From positions 21,990,861 through 22,054,860 of the forward strand of contig NC_089792.1 of assembly GCF_040412425.1 (NCBI RefSeq): DNA of 64,000 bases, written 5' to 3'. The stretch comes from Macrobrachium rosenbergii (lineage: Eukaryota > Arthropoda > Malacostraca > Decapoda > Palaemonidae). The notes beneath the pieces are model-generated. The model was not told where the DNA came from, ran no database searches, and saw only the letters and a program-made list of their open reading frames with translations. The position numbers and the translations under genes are program-made. The first letter of the stretch is position 1. Each line of letters starts with the position of its first letter. This document shows positions 3,074 through 58,461 of this stretch, piece by piece.

Positions 3074-6000
3074 GTATGAAAGTGTATTTTGAAAAAGGGT
3101 TTAATTGCACTGTTTAGGGGTAAATACTCTGGTAAGTCTCTCAGGCTTGGTGATTGTTTAGTAAAATTTTGTACTTCAGAAGGTTTGAAATTGCAGAAGC
3201 AAGTTTGCGTGACATAAACCAATTGTTTTTATACAAACTCATCAGTCATATAGAAACCTTCATTCATGGTTGAATGGTCTAAACACTTGCCTTCTGAAGT
3301 CTTGAAAACAAGAAGCAGAATAGCTAAGTGATGTCATTCATGTGCATTTGTGAACATTGGATGATTATAACTGCCAAGATTAGATTTTTAACAAGAAGAT
3401 AGGGATGGGAGTTGAGAAATTCAATATAGGGTTGATGGATTTGCCATGAATACTTAATTTGATCATATCAATCATCAGTCATATTGAACTCAGATTACTA
3501 ACAGGTGAGAAATGGAAGTGGCCCAGAATTTGCAAAAGACTCATGATTCCAGTGGATCATTGTATCCAAAGAATTTTCTTGGGTACTGTGAGTAGTTGAA
3601 CATCCAGAAAATAGGCAGATAGTTTGTACATTTTCATATCTCAGCACAGGCACAGATATGAAGTAACTATTCGGTTGAGATGTATGTGCTTGTAACCCCA
3701 GAAGACTATGGCTCATGAGGAAAAATTATGAATTAACAAGGGCAGTAAGTAGGAAGAAGGAGAATAAAGTAAAATATCTTTCGCCACTAGTAAAAATTTA
3801 TCTGCTCGATTACCAGTCCTAGTCTGTTCAACCCCATGATGTATTGAAGGTAAAAAGAGGCATAAGTCAACTGACATCTCCATATACTCGCATTTATGAT
3901 TGCCAAAATCTTTTTCTTTTGGAAAGCCTTTGATATGACCATGATCTCAAGCACAGTCACTTTCACATGATCAGCCTCTTCTTCTTCTTCTGAGACATCG
4001 AAATATGCATGCAGGGTAATCAGACTCACCCAGTTTGAAAAAGAATCTAAAAATTTTCATTTTACTTATGCATAGATAAGAAGAGCCTAAAATAATCACA
4101 TCTCAAGTGCCTGGTCCTCTAAAGTTAGTGTTGAATGGCTCTCATGGGGTCTTATGCTTTGTTGGAGTACAAGACTTGAATGGCAGATGGGGTTGCATAT
4201 GGTCGTGAGTTCTTGGTTGAAAAATCGGGAACAAATGATAAGCCTGGTGATGACCAACCACTGGTATTGATTATGGTGCCAGATAGAACATTCATCTCAC
4301 TTCACACCTTGAGAATGCAAAAGCTAACAGGAAAGCAGCCTTCACACCAAGATGCAGTATAAAAGCCTTTCACATTAGATTTTAAGGAGCCCTGATGAAG
4401 TGTCATCCTAGAATAACCAGAGGCATTTGAGTTTCATTAGGACTTGGCTGTTAAATAAAAAAAAAAAATTGTTTGAACACGCTTTTATTAAAATGCACCA
4501 AAAAGTAAAAAATAATTTCTTGAGACACCAGGATTTTCTTACAATTAATCTTGTCTAAAAAATAAAAGTGTTGATGCCAAACATGGAAGAAAATGCTACA
4601 AGAAATAAATTTTTTTTCTTGTAGCATTTCCTTTCATGTTTGGCAACCATGCTTTTATTTTTGTAGGCATGATTAATTTTAAGAAAATCCTGGTGTCTCA
4701 AAAAATAATTTTTTCCTTTTTAGTGTGTTTTAATAAAAGCGTGTTTTAAAAATTTTTCTTTTTTTATTTTATTTTATACTTTTTGGTTTTGACAGAAATT
4801 GTAAATGATTTATGATTATAGCTAATAAAACTGAACATGATATCCTGTTGAGCCAAAAAAAGTTTGAAAAATCCAGAGAGTTATAATATTAACTTTATAT
4901 TCTATAAAGTCAAAGAAGGTATGAAAAATCCGAAAAATTTCATACAAATCCTGAGATACTGGGAAAGGTCAGTGTAAGGTCACTAGAGGTCACTACTGAC
5001 CTAATATCATGTAAGGTTGTATTGTCACCAAGATTGAGTAACCATGTAAAATTTCAAGTTCATCAGACGAAGGGAACAGGTTGAAAATTGAGTTACAAGT
5101 TATGACCAAAACAGATAGACTGACAGACACGGAAGTCATGTTAAATAAAAGCATGTAAAAAAACACAATTATGAGATACTAGTTATGAACAGGAGAACAA
5201 GATGTATTTCTGGATCGGGGTCCCGTGTCACCCGGTGAAATAGTCCATTCAGCACTTATTTCTAGGTAATTCCGTTGCTAGATACCAGAGAAAGCTAAAT
5301 GAAATGCTGGAGTTACTACCCCAGAGCGAGCTCCACTAGATGGAGTCGTGTATGGAAAAGGGTGAACTACAAAAACACGGAACCTTATCCTATAGAGATT
5401 CCCAATGTCAAAAGTCCCAACGAGAGAGGTGCCGATACAAGCCCATGCCCTACTCGCGGACTGTATACAAGGCAACACTAGCCGCATTCCATTTTAGCAC
5501 GTTTTTTTTTCACACGTAATTTCGTTGTGATCCTTATTTTGTGCTCTATTTTGGATTTTTTATGGCATCCTCGCAAGGTTCTTCTTCAATTACTTGAGTA
5601 CCAGTGTTTTGTTGTTTTTTAGGCGATTGAGGCTTCTTATTTTCCTTTAGTTTAATAATTAAAGGAATTTATAACGCCCGCCTCGATCTCCTCTCACGCT
5701 CTCTTGACCTCTCTTGGTCTTGGCTCGGCATATTTGTTTTGTGTTTTTTATTTGTATCCCTTTTTATTTGGGATGTTTTACCATTAATGATCCCTATCTT
5801 TAGTGGGTTTGATTAATTTTTGTTTGTTCTGTACCCATTTACTACGAGAAGTGCTGTTTACCGTTTAGGCTACGAGCTACCCCCTCGGGCCCATTCGCTT
5901 TTTTCATGACTTCATTACGAGAGTGATTTTATTATGGTAGTGATGTTTAGCGTTTAGGCTACGAGCTACCCACTCAGGCCCATTCGCCTTTTATCATGGC

Positions 6001-9000
6001 TTCTTTACGGGAGTGATGTTTAGCGTTTAGGCTCTTAGCTACCCCCTCGCCCATTCGCTTTTTATCGTGGCTTCAATACGAAATGTTGTTGAGCGTTTAG
6101 GCTCGAGCTTCCCCTCGAGCCCATTCGCTTATTATCATGGCCTCATTATGTTTTGTTTTTGTCACTCACTTCTCTTAGCCTTTGGGGATCTTATTTTCAT
6201 TGGTACTGTTACGGTTTTACTTTGTTTTCATAATTTTGTTTATTTTGTGAATTTTGTGTTCCCTTCCTGATCAAGTGCTGTCTTGCTGTTTAGGCTACGT
6301 GGTTCCCCTCGGGCCTATTCGCTTTATTTTGGCTTTATTTTGCCTTGTTTTAGACTCACTTCTCTAAGTGTATGGGAACATGATTTTCATTGTTACATTT
6401 AATTTTTGACCTTGTGCTTGGATGCTTTTGAATTTTGGGATAACACATTTAACTGGAGGTCGGTCATGTCCCTTCACGTCCATGTCGTGTTGGGCCTGCC
6501 TATCCTCCTACATGTACCTTACAGACAATTTTTGTTTCATATAAACCTATCGGTTCTCCGCCTCTTGTGGCTTATTAATAGTTAATCTTTCGGTGTTTGG
6601 GCTCTCTCCGGGCGAGATTCTCGGTGGATCGGTAGGTTTCATATACGCCTATCGATTTCCTCCGCCAAACTCCGTTTCCGGGCGAGATTCTCGGTAAATT
6701 GGTAGGTTTCATATACACCTATCGGTTTTTCCTTCGCCAAACTCCGTCTTATATAAATTATTGATAGTTGTTCCTCCGGTGTCTGGGGTTCTAATTTTTC
6801 CCCCTCCTGGAGGCCGGCCGCAAGTCTCGTAACTCTTCGCCTCAAGTTGGTTACGGAGAGTTTTCTGAAGACGTTATGCCTTCTGTCTCGCTTCTCGGAC
6901 CTGTGAACATCGTCCCGGAGCGATAAGTAGGTGCGGAATAATTGAGACAAGCCTTTTTCCGCTTAGCTCGGAATTAGGTGAGGCAAACTTTTCCTTTAGG
7001 GGATTCGTTACCTTCTCATCCCTTTTCGACGGTTCCTGGTCTACCGTCCCTAAGGTGAAGTCAGTAAAAAAAGTAAAAAAAAAAAAAAAAAAAAGACCAC
7101 CCTTTTTTAAACCAAGAAGACCCGCTCCGCCCCCCCCTCAAGGACGTCTCGGATCTCTAATCCGGTGCCATCTACGAGTTTGGCCTCGTCTTCTGAAAGG
7201 GACACGGCCCAAGCAAAGCAAGGCGGTTACCCCCTCCTTCCTTTGTTGAAAACTCTTTTACGGGTCTCCTTATAAGGAGCTCGTTATGAGGGTCATTGTC
7301 AACCTATTAACTAACTATCTACGTCATGGTCCATGCCTTCCCTTTCCCAGGAGCTTAAATCCCAAGAGATTAATCTCAAGACTCATTGTCAATGGATCAC
7401 CTGTTAAGTCCTGCTCCGTTCTGGAATTCTATCGTTCCGGACATCTCCACCTCTTTTCCCCTCCAGTCTGGGGAATCTTGGTGCCTTCCCTTTATGCTTC
7501 CCAGCATGAAGGCACCCTCCTGTCGGGGGTGTGGGCACACGGAGGTTGGTGGAAGGGCATTTCTTCCCTTCCGGTCTGGTATCCTCTTATCCGGGTTTTA
7601 CCAGACTGTCAGAACGAGCATGGCATCTGTCTGGCAGGATCCATAAGTGAGCCCTCAGCTAGGGGCTGGACACATCGTCTCCCTGAGGACTCTAACGGAG
7701 TGGCAGGCGGAGAATTCCAAGTTCACGCCAGCTGTGGGGTCTTACCGTGCTCTCTTGGAGAGCCCTGTTTCTTACCCCTTGTGCTCCGAATGTAGCCCCT
7801 CTTATCAACAGGCTTGTTTTGAAAATGTATCGCTGAGGCATTTCCGGGAGACAGATATCACAGATACATTCACAGTGAATCTTCTAACCCTGGACTACGC
7901 TTCTAATTTATTCAGCATACAGCTCCCTAAGCTTCCGGAGTCAATTTTCGGAAGCTGAAACAGGGTGTAAGTCAGGCTTGCCCGTTCCGCCTTGAGCTGA
8001 AAAATCTTATGAACGGTTTCACCTGGAGAATTAATCTTTTCCCAGGTGGGCGTTGTTACGGCCCATCTGGGGCTACTATTGTTACCCAGAGCCTCCGTTC
8101 TCATGGGTGTCTACCCTCGAGCAGAAACGGTCTGATCTTGCTGGGACCTGCCCTAAGTCCGGCAAGAAGTTCATGTAGTTCAAGAGCCCCCCTGCTCAGG
8201 CAGTGGTGCAGGCTCTTCAGGTCTCTGCCCCTAGACAGCCGTCAGCTCTCACTCCCAGCCTCCACCTCGATGTGTGCGGGTTCAGCCAACACATCAGCCC
8301 CTTGTAACGCCCCGTGTGTCTCTGCCTCCCCACGGGAAAGAGATAGCAATGCCCGCCGGGTTTTCTTTGCTTCATACGAAAACCTAAGGAAAAATTTTCA
8401 CTAGACATTTGGCAAGAGGCTCTGACCCTCAGGGTTATCATAGGAGCAGGGATGCATCCTACTCCTCTCCGAGAAATTGGGAAGGCTTTCGCTTCACGGG
8501 GAGGCAATCAAGCCTCCTCCCTGTAGTATTTCTCATATGGGTGGGAGGCTGTACCATTTTCGGGGCCACTGGAACTTCAGTTCCTGGGCCCAGAGTATAG
8601 TTATCAGGGCCCGGGTGGAGCTGGACTGTTGTTCCCCAATCAGGTTCAATCAGCCTCCGGCCAGAGTTCTGGGGTCTTTGCGAATGGCCTGTCAGGCTTT
8701 TTCAGTCTGCCAAGGAAGTTCCCTTCCACTGGAAAATTTTTTCCGGCGTGTCCTGTTTGTTTTCCTTATTCATGCAAGTCTCGGTTGCTTACAGTCTTGT
8801 GGGTTCGGATCCTACTGCGCCGTGGAGCCGTAACCACCTCTATAGACCTTCCGACGCTTCCTTTCACATCTTGGTTGCAGAAAGGTCCTATCCCTTCTTG
8901 GGATTCAGACTCGGGAGCAGGCGTGCCCTTCAGGTTCATGCCCTCCTCAATGCGGCTCCAGAGTCTTCGCCAGTTTGAACAATACCGTAGTTCAACAGCT

Positions 9001-12000
9001 CCGGTATTAGGAGGCTATGCTAGCTGCATATCTAGTTGCCTGGCTCATTTGGGCACCCAGCGTCGGGAATTGCCTGAGGGCGCCGGTCATTATAATCGGT
9101 TTCTAGTCTTTGGGCTTCTAAGTAACCAGGAAGGAATCCCACCTGATTCAGGAGGGTAGCCTTCCGTAGTTATGAATCCAGTGGAAGTGGAAAGAGATAG
9201 CAAGGGCATCTTATCATTTCATCATCTCAAGCATACCTCTCCCGTGCCCAAGAAAAGGTCCTGGTTTTCTCCAGTTTGCTTCAGTGACGGTTCTCCTTCT
9301 GAAGTCAAAGCTGGAGTTTATGACCGGGTATGGTGGAGTCAGGGACGTGTCTCCTTGATTCCTCCTACTTGAATAGTGGCCTCCGGCCTTGCACAACTGT
9401 CAAGTGCTTACCAAGTCAGTTCCTCTCCAGCTTTCCTCCGGCCTCAGTATTCCACACACGTCACCTCTCTGGCGGGTGAGGTGGTTATTTTTGGCCCAAT
9501 GGAGTACATGGTACTTAGTCGGTCACGTTCGACAGTTCCATATCAACGCTTTGGAGGGCGGTGACAGTCTTCCTGTCCTTGGAAACTCCCCAAGAGGTTT
9601 CCTTTTAGGCTGGTTCTGAACAAAACAGCAATAGTGCGCTGCGTAAACAGGTGGTTTTGGACTCGAATTGCTCCGTTCAGGTTATGGTTCATTCTTCTCC
9701 ATAACCAACAGACGCAGGTGCCTCTGTCTACCACCCTTCTCGTAGGGGTCCAAAAAGGTCACTGCTTTTTCCCTATCCAGGGCCTCCCCTGGTGTCGGAA
9801 TAGTCCTTAGGCGGAGCATCATTCAGGTAGTCTTGTGACCTTTTCCTGGGCCTGGAAGTAGGTCTGTTTGCAACCCAATTCAGCCACAAACTATCAAGCT
9901 GTCCCGTCTGGTATAAACTCAGCCTCGCCAGCCCCTCAAACTCTGATGTCCTGGCTTTGCGGTCTTTGTGAATCTTACAGTTGAGGAGGAAACTGATATT
10001 GGTCCTGTTATTACTGTTTTCCTGAAATCAGTTAAGGGATCCTACTCTACTGCAGTATGGTTCTGCAGTTAAGTAACTAGCACTCTTCACATAGTTTTCG
10101 AAGCTATAGTACTGATGCGACCGCATTGGCCTCGAGGAAAGTGTTTTGTTGGAACCAGACTCACAGGCCCTTAACTTTCATCCCTAAGGTCTGTGTTCGT
10201 CTAAGAACAGTACTCCGTCCACATTCGGTTTCCTGGTCTTTGAGTAATGTATCGGAGTTAGCTTCGGTAACCAACAATCACCTTGTTCTTATCTTTCCTT
10301 GTTAAGGAAGTCCCAAAATTTTTAATCAGCTTAGCTTCTAGTGTTAGTTTTCCTGTACTGTCTGCCCTGTCTGGCGGAACCAATCAGTTTGGTTTGTCTG
10401 GCGGAACCAATCAGTTTGGTTTCCCCTCTTCAGGGGTAGTGTTGTGAATTCCTCACCCTAACTTTCTATCTACATTGAAGGTCCTCATTTTCGGTGGTCA
10501 CCTTGGAAAGTACTCCCTTTTACAAGGTCTGTTTCTGTGTCCAGTTTTCTCCTTGCAGGCTTTTTAGACAGGACCTCGCAATTTTGTCAGGTCCTCTCCT
10601 TTAAAAAAGGGGGGGGCACTGTCATTGGGTCTGCTATTAGGCAGGAAGTATTTTCTTAATACAAGCCTATTCAGGTGCTATTCTAAGCTCATGATCTTAG
10701 ACGGTGACCACTTACATTATTTTCATTACATGAACTTAGAGGACCTTACTTATGTTCAGGGTAGAATTCTCCTAGTTTTCAACGTTTCTATTTAAGTCTT
10801 TAATAGCATAAGAATGATGTTTATTTCTCTGTTACTATTTCATCCGGGTGACACGGGACTCGATCCAGAAAAAGGATTTTGACAAAGGAAAATCTATTTC
10901 TGGAGAGGGGCCCGTGTCACCCGGTGACCCACCCTGTTTTTCATTCTCTCCCTCCCTTGATAAACTTCATTCTAGTGAGGTGGGTGCTAACATGGAATGC
11001 GGCTAGTGTTGCCTTGTATACAGTCCGCGAGTAGGGCATGGGCTTGTATCGGCACCTCTCTCGTTGGGACTTTTGACATTGGGAATCTCTATAGGATAAG
11101 GTTCCGTGTTTTTGTAGTTCACCCTTTTCCATACACGACTCCATCTAGTGGAGCTCGCTCTGGGGGTAGTAACTCCAGCATTTCATTTAGCTTTCTCTGG
11201 TATCTAGCAACGGAATTACCTAGAAATAAGTGCTGAATGGACTATTTCACCGGGTGACACGGGCCCCTCTCCAGAAATAGATTTTTCCTTTGTCAAAATC
11301 CTTTAATTGATATCTGGGAGAAGTGAAACAATAATATTTAAAGCCAGAAAACTAAGCAAAATAAAAATGAAAAGAAACACTAGTATTTCATATATAATAC
11401 ACAAGATGTACCAGAAAAACTAAATTATGCTGTTAATTATTATGCCGTCTATTACCAAACCTAATGTAAAGAATCTGAATTACTGATTATGCACATTGCA
11501 GAGCAAGAAAACACCAAAATTTGGTAATAAGGTAAGAAGCTGAAAAACAACAAACTGTAAGAAAAACTTTATGATCACTCACTTGAAATGAAAAAGGGAA
11601 TAAAATTAGTAAAATGAAAAGAAAATAAAGAAATAAATATAAAATGAACATGTTGAAATAAGAATGTAGTATTACTGATATTAACTTGAAATAAGAATGT
11701 AGTATTACTGATATTAACATTGAATGTAAATTTTCCTTAGGTTGATGCTGTGCTCTCAATGATAGCATCATTAATTTGTGACCAGTCAGATCAACCCCTA
11801 GTTGAACCAGATCCTGAGGACTTGGCTGAAGAGCAAGGCCTACTTGCAAGGTAAGGGACAATATAAATTTGTTTCTGGAATCATAATTTGGGTAAATTAA
11901 TGACATATTTCTGTAGGGTTTTGAAATAAATGATTGACTTTGTCTTATTTTCTCATTAACTATGCAAATGAATTGTATACTATTTGGTTAATTGAACTTT

Positions 12001-20483: not shown

Positions 20484-22678
20484 TTAACCCTGGAACGCCG
20501 AGCCTCTAACAAAAACATCTCCGTCCTCTTTAAACGTTTTTATTAAAAAAATGAAAAAAGTTTTTTCAAAAATCACAGCAAAATTAGTTTTTAAGATTAA
20601 GTTCATTTTTGGCTCCTTTTTGTCATTGCCTGAAGTTTAGTATGCAACCATTAGAAATGAAAAAAATATCATTATCATATATAAATATTGAAATATATGA
20701 CTCAAAAAATTTTTCATATATAATTTTATACAAATCGCATGGGTTATTAGCAAAACGGTTAAAGCTAACGGGTTATTTTGTTTTTCTTCATGGACTGTAC
20801 ACTAAATTGTGATGATTTTGGTATTTAACAAATTGCAAAACGATCAAAGCAACACAGAGAAAATATTATCACAAAATGATGCATGAAAACAAAAAAAGAA
20901 ATGAAAAACCAGAATGCCAAAAAATTTTTTTTTTTTTTTTTTAAATTCACCATAAATCGAAATATTGTGCAAGAAACTTCCTGTTTGTTGAGAAATGAAG
21001 CTAATTGATTGAATATTACTAGACTGTAAGTGTTTTAGCTATAAATTGCAGTTTTCGACCATTTCCCTCATGAGTTAAAGTTGACCGAAAGTCAAATTTT
21101 TCTATTTATCGTGATTTATATGAAAATATTTCAAAACTGATAAAACCTACAACCATGAGCTATTTTCTGTTGTATTCTACAAAATTGTGCACATTTCCAT
21201 ATATAAAAGTTTATGTAACGACTAATGTAAAACGATGCAAACAACATACGACAACGTGTCCAAAGAATTTCTGAGATGTTGTCCATGTTACCGTGAAGAA
21301 TCTTTGGAAAATTTTTCAAAATTCACCATAAATCGAAATATTGTGCTAGAGACTTGAAATTTATTGCAAAATGAAGGTAAATGATTGAATATTACTAGAA
21401 TGTAAGAGTTTTAGCTTACAATTGCGTTTTTTTACCATTTGGTCGAGTTAAAGTTGATCTGTAAGGTTGAAATTTTTTCAACATCGTGATTTATGTGAAA
21501 ATATTTCAAAACTGATAAAAGCTACAACCATGAGCTATTTTCTGTTGTATTCTACATGAAATTGCAAGCACATTTTCATATATGAAAGTTTATGTAACGA
21601 CTAATGTAAAACGATGCAAACATTACGACAACGTGACAAAAGAATTTCTGAGATGTTTACGCCGATTACTGATGCCATTTCGTGGAAAAAGTTTTTTTAG
21701 AAATTCACCATAAATCGAAATATTGTGCTAGAGACTTCCAATTGTTGCTAAATGAAGGTACATGATTGAATATTACTAGAATGTAAGAGTTTTAGCTTAT
21801 AATTGCGTTTTTTACCATTTTGGTTGAGTTAAAGTTGACATAACACAATGAAATTTTGGCAGTTATCGTGATTTATATGAAAAAATTTCAAAACTGATAA
21901 AAGCTACAACCATGAGTTATTTTCTAAGTATTTACAGAAATTGCATCACATTTCCATATATAAAACTATGTAATGACTAATATAAAACGGTGCAAACATT
22001 ATGACAACGTGGCCCTTTGAAAGAATTTCTCTCCGTAAGGAAAAGTTTTTCAAAAAGTCACCATAAATCGAAATATTGTGCTAGACTTCCAATTGGTTGC
22101 AAAATGAAGGTAAATGATTGAATATTACTAGAATGTAAGAGTTTTAGCCTTCTTGCAGTTTTTTGACCATTTCAGTCGAAAAAGTTGACCAAGCATTGAA
22201 ATTTTGGCAGTTATTGTGGTTTATATGAAAATATTTCCAAACTGATAAAAGCTAAACCATGGGTTGTATTTTGCTGTATTTTACATGAAATTGCACACAT
22301 TTTCATATATAAAACTTTATGTAACAAGCTAATATAGAACAGTGCAAAAATTCCATTGTCCTGAAAGAATTTCTGAAATTTTCGGCCATTATTTAATTCT
22401 GCCTGCTCAAAAAGTTTTTTTCAAAAATTCACCATAAATCGAAATAATGTGCAGAGACTTCCAATTTGTTGCAAAATTAAGGTACATAATTGAATATTAC
22501 TAGAATGTAAGAGTTTTAGCTTGCAATTGCGTTTTTCGACCATTCATGCTCGAGTCAAAGTTGACTCAAGGTTGAAATTTTTTGTAGTCGACCAATTCTG
22601 CATCGGTATGTCCACTTGACACCCAACAGACAATTTTAGTCAACGTGATGATACGCCCAGTAGGCGTTTGAGGGTTAA
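20484..22678. mobile_element. TTAA-flanked piggyBac-like non-autonomous element carrying satellite repeats
   Basis: The left border reads TTAACCCTGGAACGCC (from 20484) and the right border GGCGTTTGAGGGTTAA (to 22678). These are inverted ends starting CCCT, with a TTAA at each side, the target site and end type of piggyBac elements. The 2.2-kb interior contains no transposase and consists mostly of about 370-bp tandem repeats. The ends match over only about 13 bp with two mismatches, so the family call is tentative. Confidence 0.5.
20940..22600 (+). repeat. Tandem array of about 370-bp units
   Basis: The phrase ATTCACCATAAATCGAAATA or a close variant starts units near 20945, 21321, 21705, 22057 and 22428, giving periods of 376, 384, 352 and 371 bp. 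Each unit continues with GAATATTACTAGA(A/C)TGTAAG, an AAAGTTGA block, ATGAAAATATTTC, and a CATATAT-containing block. The last unit is cut short. The units differ by many small indels, so the array is old. Confidence 0.85.

Positions 22679-27781: not shown

Positions 27782-58461
<30,680 letters not shown>

Follow-up and report, generated by a model that had tools for sequence, protein, structure and literature searches.

A probable non-autonomous element with DIRS1-type ends in the genome of Macrobrachium rosenbergii, and the relation of its internal complementary region to its termini

The 28 DIRS1-like retrotransposons annotated in PMC3266345 share inverted terminal repeats (ITRs) composed of conserved and divergent portions, an extension, an internal complementary region (ICR) made up of two halves, a circular junction of 3 bp, and insertion without target duplication. 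Several of these elements have TTT ends and an AAA junction, an extension of 26-30 bp, and ICR halves of ~40 and ~60 bp (PMC3266345). Here we describe an element of this layout in a stretch of 64,000 nucleotides (nt) from the decapod Macrobrachium rosenbergii (assembly GCF_040412425.1, contig NC_089792.1, positions 21,990,861 to 22,054,860 of the forward strand; the whole stretch is referred to as the window), and we compare it with its relatives elsewhere in the host assembly.

A first-pass annotation of the window, made from the letters alone, had read a complete DIRS anatomy at this locus. The DIRS-type layout is borne out, but its completeness is not, since ~1.9 kb is missing relative to 10 of 11 copies and no protein family was recognized in any reading frame. 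The best explanation, to which we assign a probability of about 0.8, is that the element belongs to a large family with DIRS1-type ends, is non-autonomous, and was shortened by an internal deletion of 1.9 kb.

Anatomy of the element and its copies in the genome

The two ITRs of the window element (Table 1) differ by one base change and one indel across 257 compared columns. The ICR follows the interior, ahead of the right ITR, and, as had been proposed, it corresponds to the complement of the left end followed by the complement of the right end, with the two overlapping in one A of a run of five. Both TTT ends fit inside this junction when they share that single A. The fit of ITRs and ICR had been described as base by base, and the match is indeed close, although four differences separate the ICR from the ends: one substitution and two 1-nt indels between its left half and the left end, and a single 1-nt indel in a run of A between its right half and the right end. 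Likewise, the 27-bp extension of the right end is present as annotated, but 26 of its 27 bases, rather than all of them, recur in the ICR.

Each half of the ICR aligned better to its own end than to the other end (scores of 57 versus 47 for the left half and 109 versus 47 for the right half). In a chance control comprising 300 first-order Markov simulations of the element interior, the two halves scored 59 and 107 as compared to simulated maxima of 25 and 28. Read together, the two halves make up an imperfect palindrome whose arms measure 36 nt. A different origin of the ICR, in which a separate element akin to a miniature inverted-repeat transposable element inserted next to an unrelated element, merits next to no credence: nothing was found in its favour, the ICR and the right end co-occur at about constant spacing across copies, and each half tracks its own end.

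Table 1. Positions of features of the DIRS-type element, numbered from the first letter of the window.
Feature	Position	Strand	Remark
DIRS-type element	5207-11304		
Left ITR, begins TTT	5207-5500	+	Inverted match to 10984-11277
GGGG run of left end	5217-5220	+	ICR counterpart is CTC in the window, CCC in many copies
Imperfect repeats of the left interior, units ~54-70 bp	5850-6330	+	Direct repeat families D1, D2
Deletion scar	6534-6540		10/11 copies aligning on both sides hold ~1.90-1.95 kb more (BLAST)
Interior without intact gene	6801-10800	+	Plus-strand open reading frames <=210 aa
TATCTAGTTGCCTGG	9029-9043	+	Identical in the 12 fetched copies aligning there and in the window (13/13)
ICR left half, complement of left end	10835-10871	-	Local alignment
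Circle junction, run of five A	10869-10873		Kept in ICR loci L001-L030 (30/30), L059, L060, L061
ICR right half, complement of right end including extension	10871-10927	-	98% over 58 columns
Right ITR	10984-11277	-	Inverted copy of left ITR 5207-5500
Right extension, 27 bp, ends ...CCTTT	11278-11304	-	Absent from left ITR end

A search of the host assembly (3.18 Gb in 78 contigs) for the ICR core, as an exact pattern but for one optional base, returned 730 occurrences. We fetched a panel of 20 copies of about 8.5 kb each. Of these 20, 18 have their right border at the counterpart of 11304, whereas L033 and L044 end early. On the left side, the ITR of all 12 other copies that were read matches from the base of 5207 onward and ends exactly there in 11 of the 12; the same left start was identified in L035, L059, L060, and L061. 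The borders 5207 and 11304 thus recur in other genomic copies, with the odd L043 aside. In that copy, a right-type extension is found outside the left ITR (at about 280-360 of the oriented copy), and both of its ends are therefore of the right type.

The flanks agree with the claim that insertion left no target duplication. In 11 of 13 flank pairs, judged by eye, no duplication was visible and only T runs were seen, while the remaining two pairs (L038 and L040) sit in TA repeats, where a duplication would be invisible. Flanking DNA differs from copy to copy, and several copies lie within TA repeats. The 13 flank pairs carry 3-4 T at the left end and 3 to about 13 T at the right; provided that the junction contributes five T, the targets would have held 1 to about 12 T.

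The longer copies reveal what is absent from the window element. An additional piece of ~1.90-1.95 kb is held at position 6534 by L033, L038, L039, L042, L045-L048, L050, and L061, and a shorter one of about 0.74 kb by L040; parts of the longer piece also occur in L036 and L043. Aligned blocks at the scar mostly overlap by 4-7 bp. Most simply, the window copy would have lost this piece. L061 is a full-length copy of 7.94 kb, whereas L059 (~4.5 kb), L060 (~1.5 kb), and L044 (~1 kb, with a damaged right end) are shorter derivatives, and the left part is missing from several fetched copies. Separately, in L031, L034, L037, and L049, only the 3' 550-750 bp with the ICR and the right end align to the family; these pieces join to DNA without family similarity at break points that correspond to 10553-10757 of the window.

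Coding capacity of the element and its family

Screening against Pfam identified no family in the window element, whether its open reading frames (ORFs) were submitted singly or as six frames with X at stops, and searches with pieces of the element gave just two chance-level matches to unrelated families (E values of 0.05 and 0.2). Among the copies that were read, no ORF within the family part exceeds the 306 aa of one in L059, in a survey where L035 and L038 contain stretches of N. Taken jointly, the three longest ORFs on the plus strand of the window element's interior were equalled in 1 of 300 simulations, and the longest alone in 11 of 300, an excess that fits decayed coding sequence. None of the reverse transcriptase (RT), RNase H, methyltransferase, and tyrosine recombinase expected of a DIRS1-like element was found here. 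Since encoded proteins were not found, we file the element as a non-autonomous element with DIRS1-type ends and not as a complete DIRS.

Inspection by eye revealed motif fragments in the interior that we take to be relics of RT (~8840-9190), RNase H (~9440-9560), and tyrosine recombinase (~10010-10350); a computed comparison gave no support to these assignments. Within the presumed RT relic, TATCTAGTTGCCTGG presumably corresponds to YLVAW at the place where the catalytic YLDDW is expected, and would thus mark a dead RT centre. This presumed dead site is common to every copy that aligns there (Table 1), which suggests that the family probably spread in trans. If the reading of YLVAW is right, the source probably already lacked RT activity and the family would have spread with borrowed proteins.

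Beside one family copy, at 5308-7500 of L031, another RT relic was observed that retains an LDDW motif (RVT_1 E value of 0.004, below the curated cut-off), and which we assume to be of DIRS type.

Protein homology searches returned one relative, P0002, an ORF with 64% identity over 78% that lies in a different assembly, on a contig of 2.4 kb. No Pfam family was identified in P0002, and a homology search with P0002 returned P0002 alone. Residues 201-330 of the read-through 820-aa frame, used as a homology query, had no match. Structural relatives sought by sequence amounted to five antibody chains with E values of 0.19 or worse, and we rejected these as no real match. Neither viral_contigs nor genome_contigs contained the 25-base end pattern, and the right end together with the ICR was absent from phages.

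The lack of an intact gene might also be taken as evidence of an ancient, dead DIRS whose repeats are kept alike by gene conversion and that has not moved recently. We consider this very improbable. The interiors of 11 long copies at different sites are just 0.7-4.7% apart, the flanks of these copies differ, and short deletion derivatives retain both ends, which collectively argues that copies spread after the decay of the coding sequence. That apparently dead copies have spread, along with derivatives as short as about 1 kb, may merit recording in its own right.

ICR variants, termini, and the replication of the ends

Hundreds of copies with a varying ICR and near-constant ends allow a natural test without any experiment. 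Comparison of the ICR with the ends may bound the share of the end that could derive from a copy's own ICR. Among right termini recovered with exact patterns (n = 157), 155 carry five A and 2 carry four A, whereas the A run of the ICR comprises five A in 69, four A in 30, and another variant in 1 of the 100 listed out of 730 (Fisher p of 4e-12). Similarly, 92 left termini carry GGGG and 8 carry GGG (100 listed of 147; counted by eye), as compared to 52 CCCC, 46 CCC, and 2 others in the C run of the ICR (100 listed of 416; p of 4e-10). Both p values assume independent copies, though the copies are related.

The same pattern was observed when the ICR and the ends were paired within copies. Pairing of left ends drew on 40 of the 42 left ends on contigs C1-C8 (100 listed in all), of which 22 met a listed ICR. 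Copies with a CCC ICR had a GGGG end in 10 of 11 pairs and a GGG end in 1 of 11, and those with a CCCC ICR had a GGGG end in 11 of 11. In the fetched panel, 13 left ends could be set beside an ICR, which was never CCCC; 11 of these ends carry GGGG, and the exceptions were L040 (GGG) and L038 (GGTG). At the other terminus, copies with a four-A ICR had a right end of five T in 17 of 20 readable cases, of four T in 2, and of six T in 1 (L004, L015, and L026 were dropped from this count because their right ends were unreadable), and copies with a five-A ICR had a five-T right end in 7 of 7. The association between ICR and end inside copies was absent or weak, with a two-by-two p of 1.0 for the A run. 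Pairs that involve listed right ends number 6 with a 4A ICR and 17 with a 5A ICR, but the 29 right ends taken for them, out of 100 listed, were without exception 5A, and 4A ends cannot show among them.

A stronger generalization, that ICR and end mismatch throughout the family, was considered and dropped: the first 30 loci had been picked by their likeness to the window ICR, and the 4C type, which matches the left end, is represented in the genome by 200 exact ICRs. What holds is that ICR run-length variants are mostly missing from the ends, which argues against copying of the ICR into the ends at these positions, unless insertion came first and the variants later. The fit of the ICR had been read as a mark of end templating. 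The ICR made of joined ends is real, but the distribution of its run variants does not support such templating at the tested positions, and most of the end sequence probably has another template than the ICR.

A different pattern was observed for the two ITRs. In the 13 copies with both ITRs, the distance between the repeats was 0.0187 within copies versus 0.0238 for left-to-right comparisons between copies, and a within-copy distance as low as 0.0187 was reached in 2 of 20,000 random re-pairings. Variants at ITR columns 35, 203, 236, and 252 occur in both repeats of the copies that carry them, with the exception of L043, where the variant at column 35 is on the right ITR only. Near the inner ITR border, column 297 is T in 13 of 13 left repeats and G in 13 of 13 right repeats. 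Because the two repeats of one copy vary together, each appears to have been rewritten from its partner within these bounds, in agreement with the prediction of the DIRS model.

Our tentative reading of these comparisons, to which we would give a little less than even odds, is that the ICR is a splint that aligns the ends rather than a template that rewrites them, such that inherited ICR variants could pass many rounds of transposition while the ITRs are rewritten mutually. Under such a scheme, proteins of a related intact DIRS element would act in trans on the RNA of the family, and cDNA synthesis would reproduce one ITR from the other. The ICR would then pair with both single-stranded ends and hold them as a splint, yielding a circle or a recombination-ready junction (TTTTT) that a tyrosine recombinase could insert at a run of T. 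Copying from a copy's own ICR, if any, would be limited to the outermost 10 nt of the left end and 18 nt of the right.

Several observations weigh against this account. The rare variant ends, few in number, all sit with ICRs of matching kind (the paired 3G end and the GGG of L040 with 3C, and the two 4T ends with 4A), as expected if the missing cDNA ends are copied from a copy's own ICR in every cycle. Such full templating is the published view (PMC3266345), and it would explain why each ICR half is specific to its own end and why almost every copy shows agreement over the outermost 10 and 18 nt. However, 4G ends in copies with a 3C ICR and five-T ends in copies with a 4A ICR, at the frequencies given above, make full templating hard to hold at the tested positions unless the ICR variants postdate insertion, and we consider it unlikely.

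Inheritance of the ICR variants from a source copy is not proven by a tree of 32 copies, which is poorly resolved and on which the run states change 8 and 11 times. Scattered states of this kind are compatible with mutation in place, whereby the ICR drops bases from its short runs after insertion and mismatches would be uninformative on replication. The palindrome formed by the ICR could indeed make its runs mutable where they stand, and the loss of one C would bring the arms closer in length. Yet other ICR positions do not look more variable than the same positions of the ends (by eye), the A run is in the loop of the palindrome and outside its arms, and four A occurs in 26 of 72 ICRs without the exact 4C pattern versus 4 of 28 with it (one more is an odd variant), an excess outside 4C ICRs that suggests nested descent. 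We regard mutation in place as a rather unlikely account.

The supposed helper is also a point of difficulty. No intact partner element turned up among the copies that were read, although no search was aimed at one; the identity of the decayed interior as DIRS pol is a tentative one, drawn from motif fragments; and in alignments to the decayed, presumably DIRS-type RT of L031, the putative relics of RT, RNase H, and recombinase did no better than shuffles. A helper could play a larger role if the ICR of an intact partner completed the ends in trans and the ICR of dead copies drifted freely. The 4C type, which fits the left end, accounts for about half of the listed ICRs, and no copy that was read looks capable of acting alone, both of which would agree with templating in trans. 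Of the three fetched copies of the 4C/5A type, however, L059 and L061 are devoid of long ORFs, while in L060 the interior is mostly missing, and we consider this route improbable. Finally, the two ITRs of a copy differ from each other at columns 259-260 and at several indel columns, which speaks against mutual rewriting there. On balance, we retain the splint as a provisional interpretation.

Neighbouring features and comparison with known DIRS systems

Several other features were identified in the window. To the left of the element, 4453-4769 forms a long imperfect palindrome of 317 bp that is perhaps a fold-back element. Direct repeats of ~1.18 kb, 97.6% alike, are present at 33716-34891 and 40113-41284, and between them 37356-38273 has a weak match to a retroviral protease (E value of 0.0028, below the curated cut-off); repeats and protease (33716-41284) likely constitute a long terminal repeat retrotransposon. 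Repeat units of ~375 bp that are ~80% alike occupy 20936-22583, and a 2.7-kb tandem array with a period of ~53 bp and units ~95% alike occupies 49418-52181. An ORF at 55008-55511 encodes a transposase fragment (DDE_1 E value of 1.4e-8, with a weak HTH_Tnp_Tc5 match), presumably Tigger/pogo-like, and an ORF on the minus strand at 27782-28243 matches FIST_C (E value of 1.4e-5, below the curated cut-off).

A search of the open literature on non-autonomous DIRS elements yielded one paper, where deleted copies are mentioned in passing only (subscription papers and Repbase were outside the scope of this survey). DIRS1-like elements, as described in PMC3266345, share with the window element the ITRs, the extension on the right, a two-half ICR near the 3' end, an A-rich junction, and the absence of target duplication. 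Sizes fall in the same range, as in AcDIRS2 with its TTT start, AAA junction, extension of 28, and ICR of 39-60. The ITR of the window element, at 294 bp, is near the maximum of 316 given there. In contrast, the junction here comprises five A with ends overlapping by one, as compared to an overlap of 3 bp in those elements; the full-length copy L061 has 7.9 kb as compared to 3974-6283 bp; and the elements of that source are annotated with gag, pol, and recombinase, none of which was found in the family of the window element (PMC3266345). Decapod DIRS1-like families have the same layout and are described from pol sequences (PMC2685390), whereas no computed protein similarity could be shown for the window element.

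The interpretation of the ICR as a circle junction is the published DIRS-1 model and is not new; the model at which the first-pass annotation arrived is set out in PMC3266345. In DIRS-1 of Dictyostelium (PMC5633606), the ICR is complementary to both ends, as it is in the window element, although DIRS-1 differs from the family described here in host, sequence, and coding capacity. With respect to the DIRS-1 model (PMC5633606), our comparison of copies speaks against templating of most of the end by a copy's own ICR.

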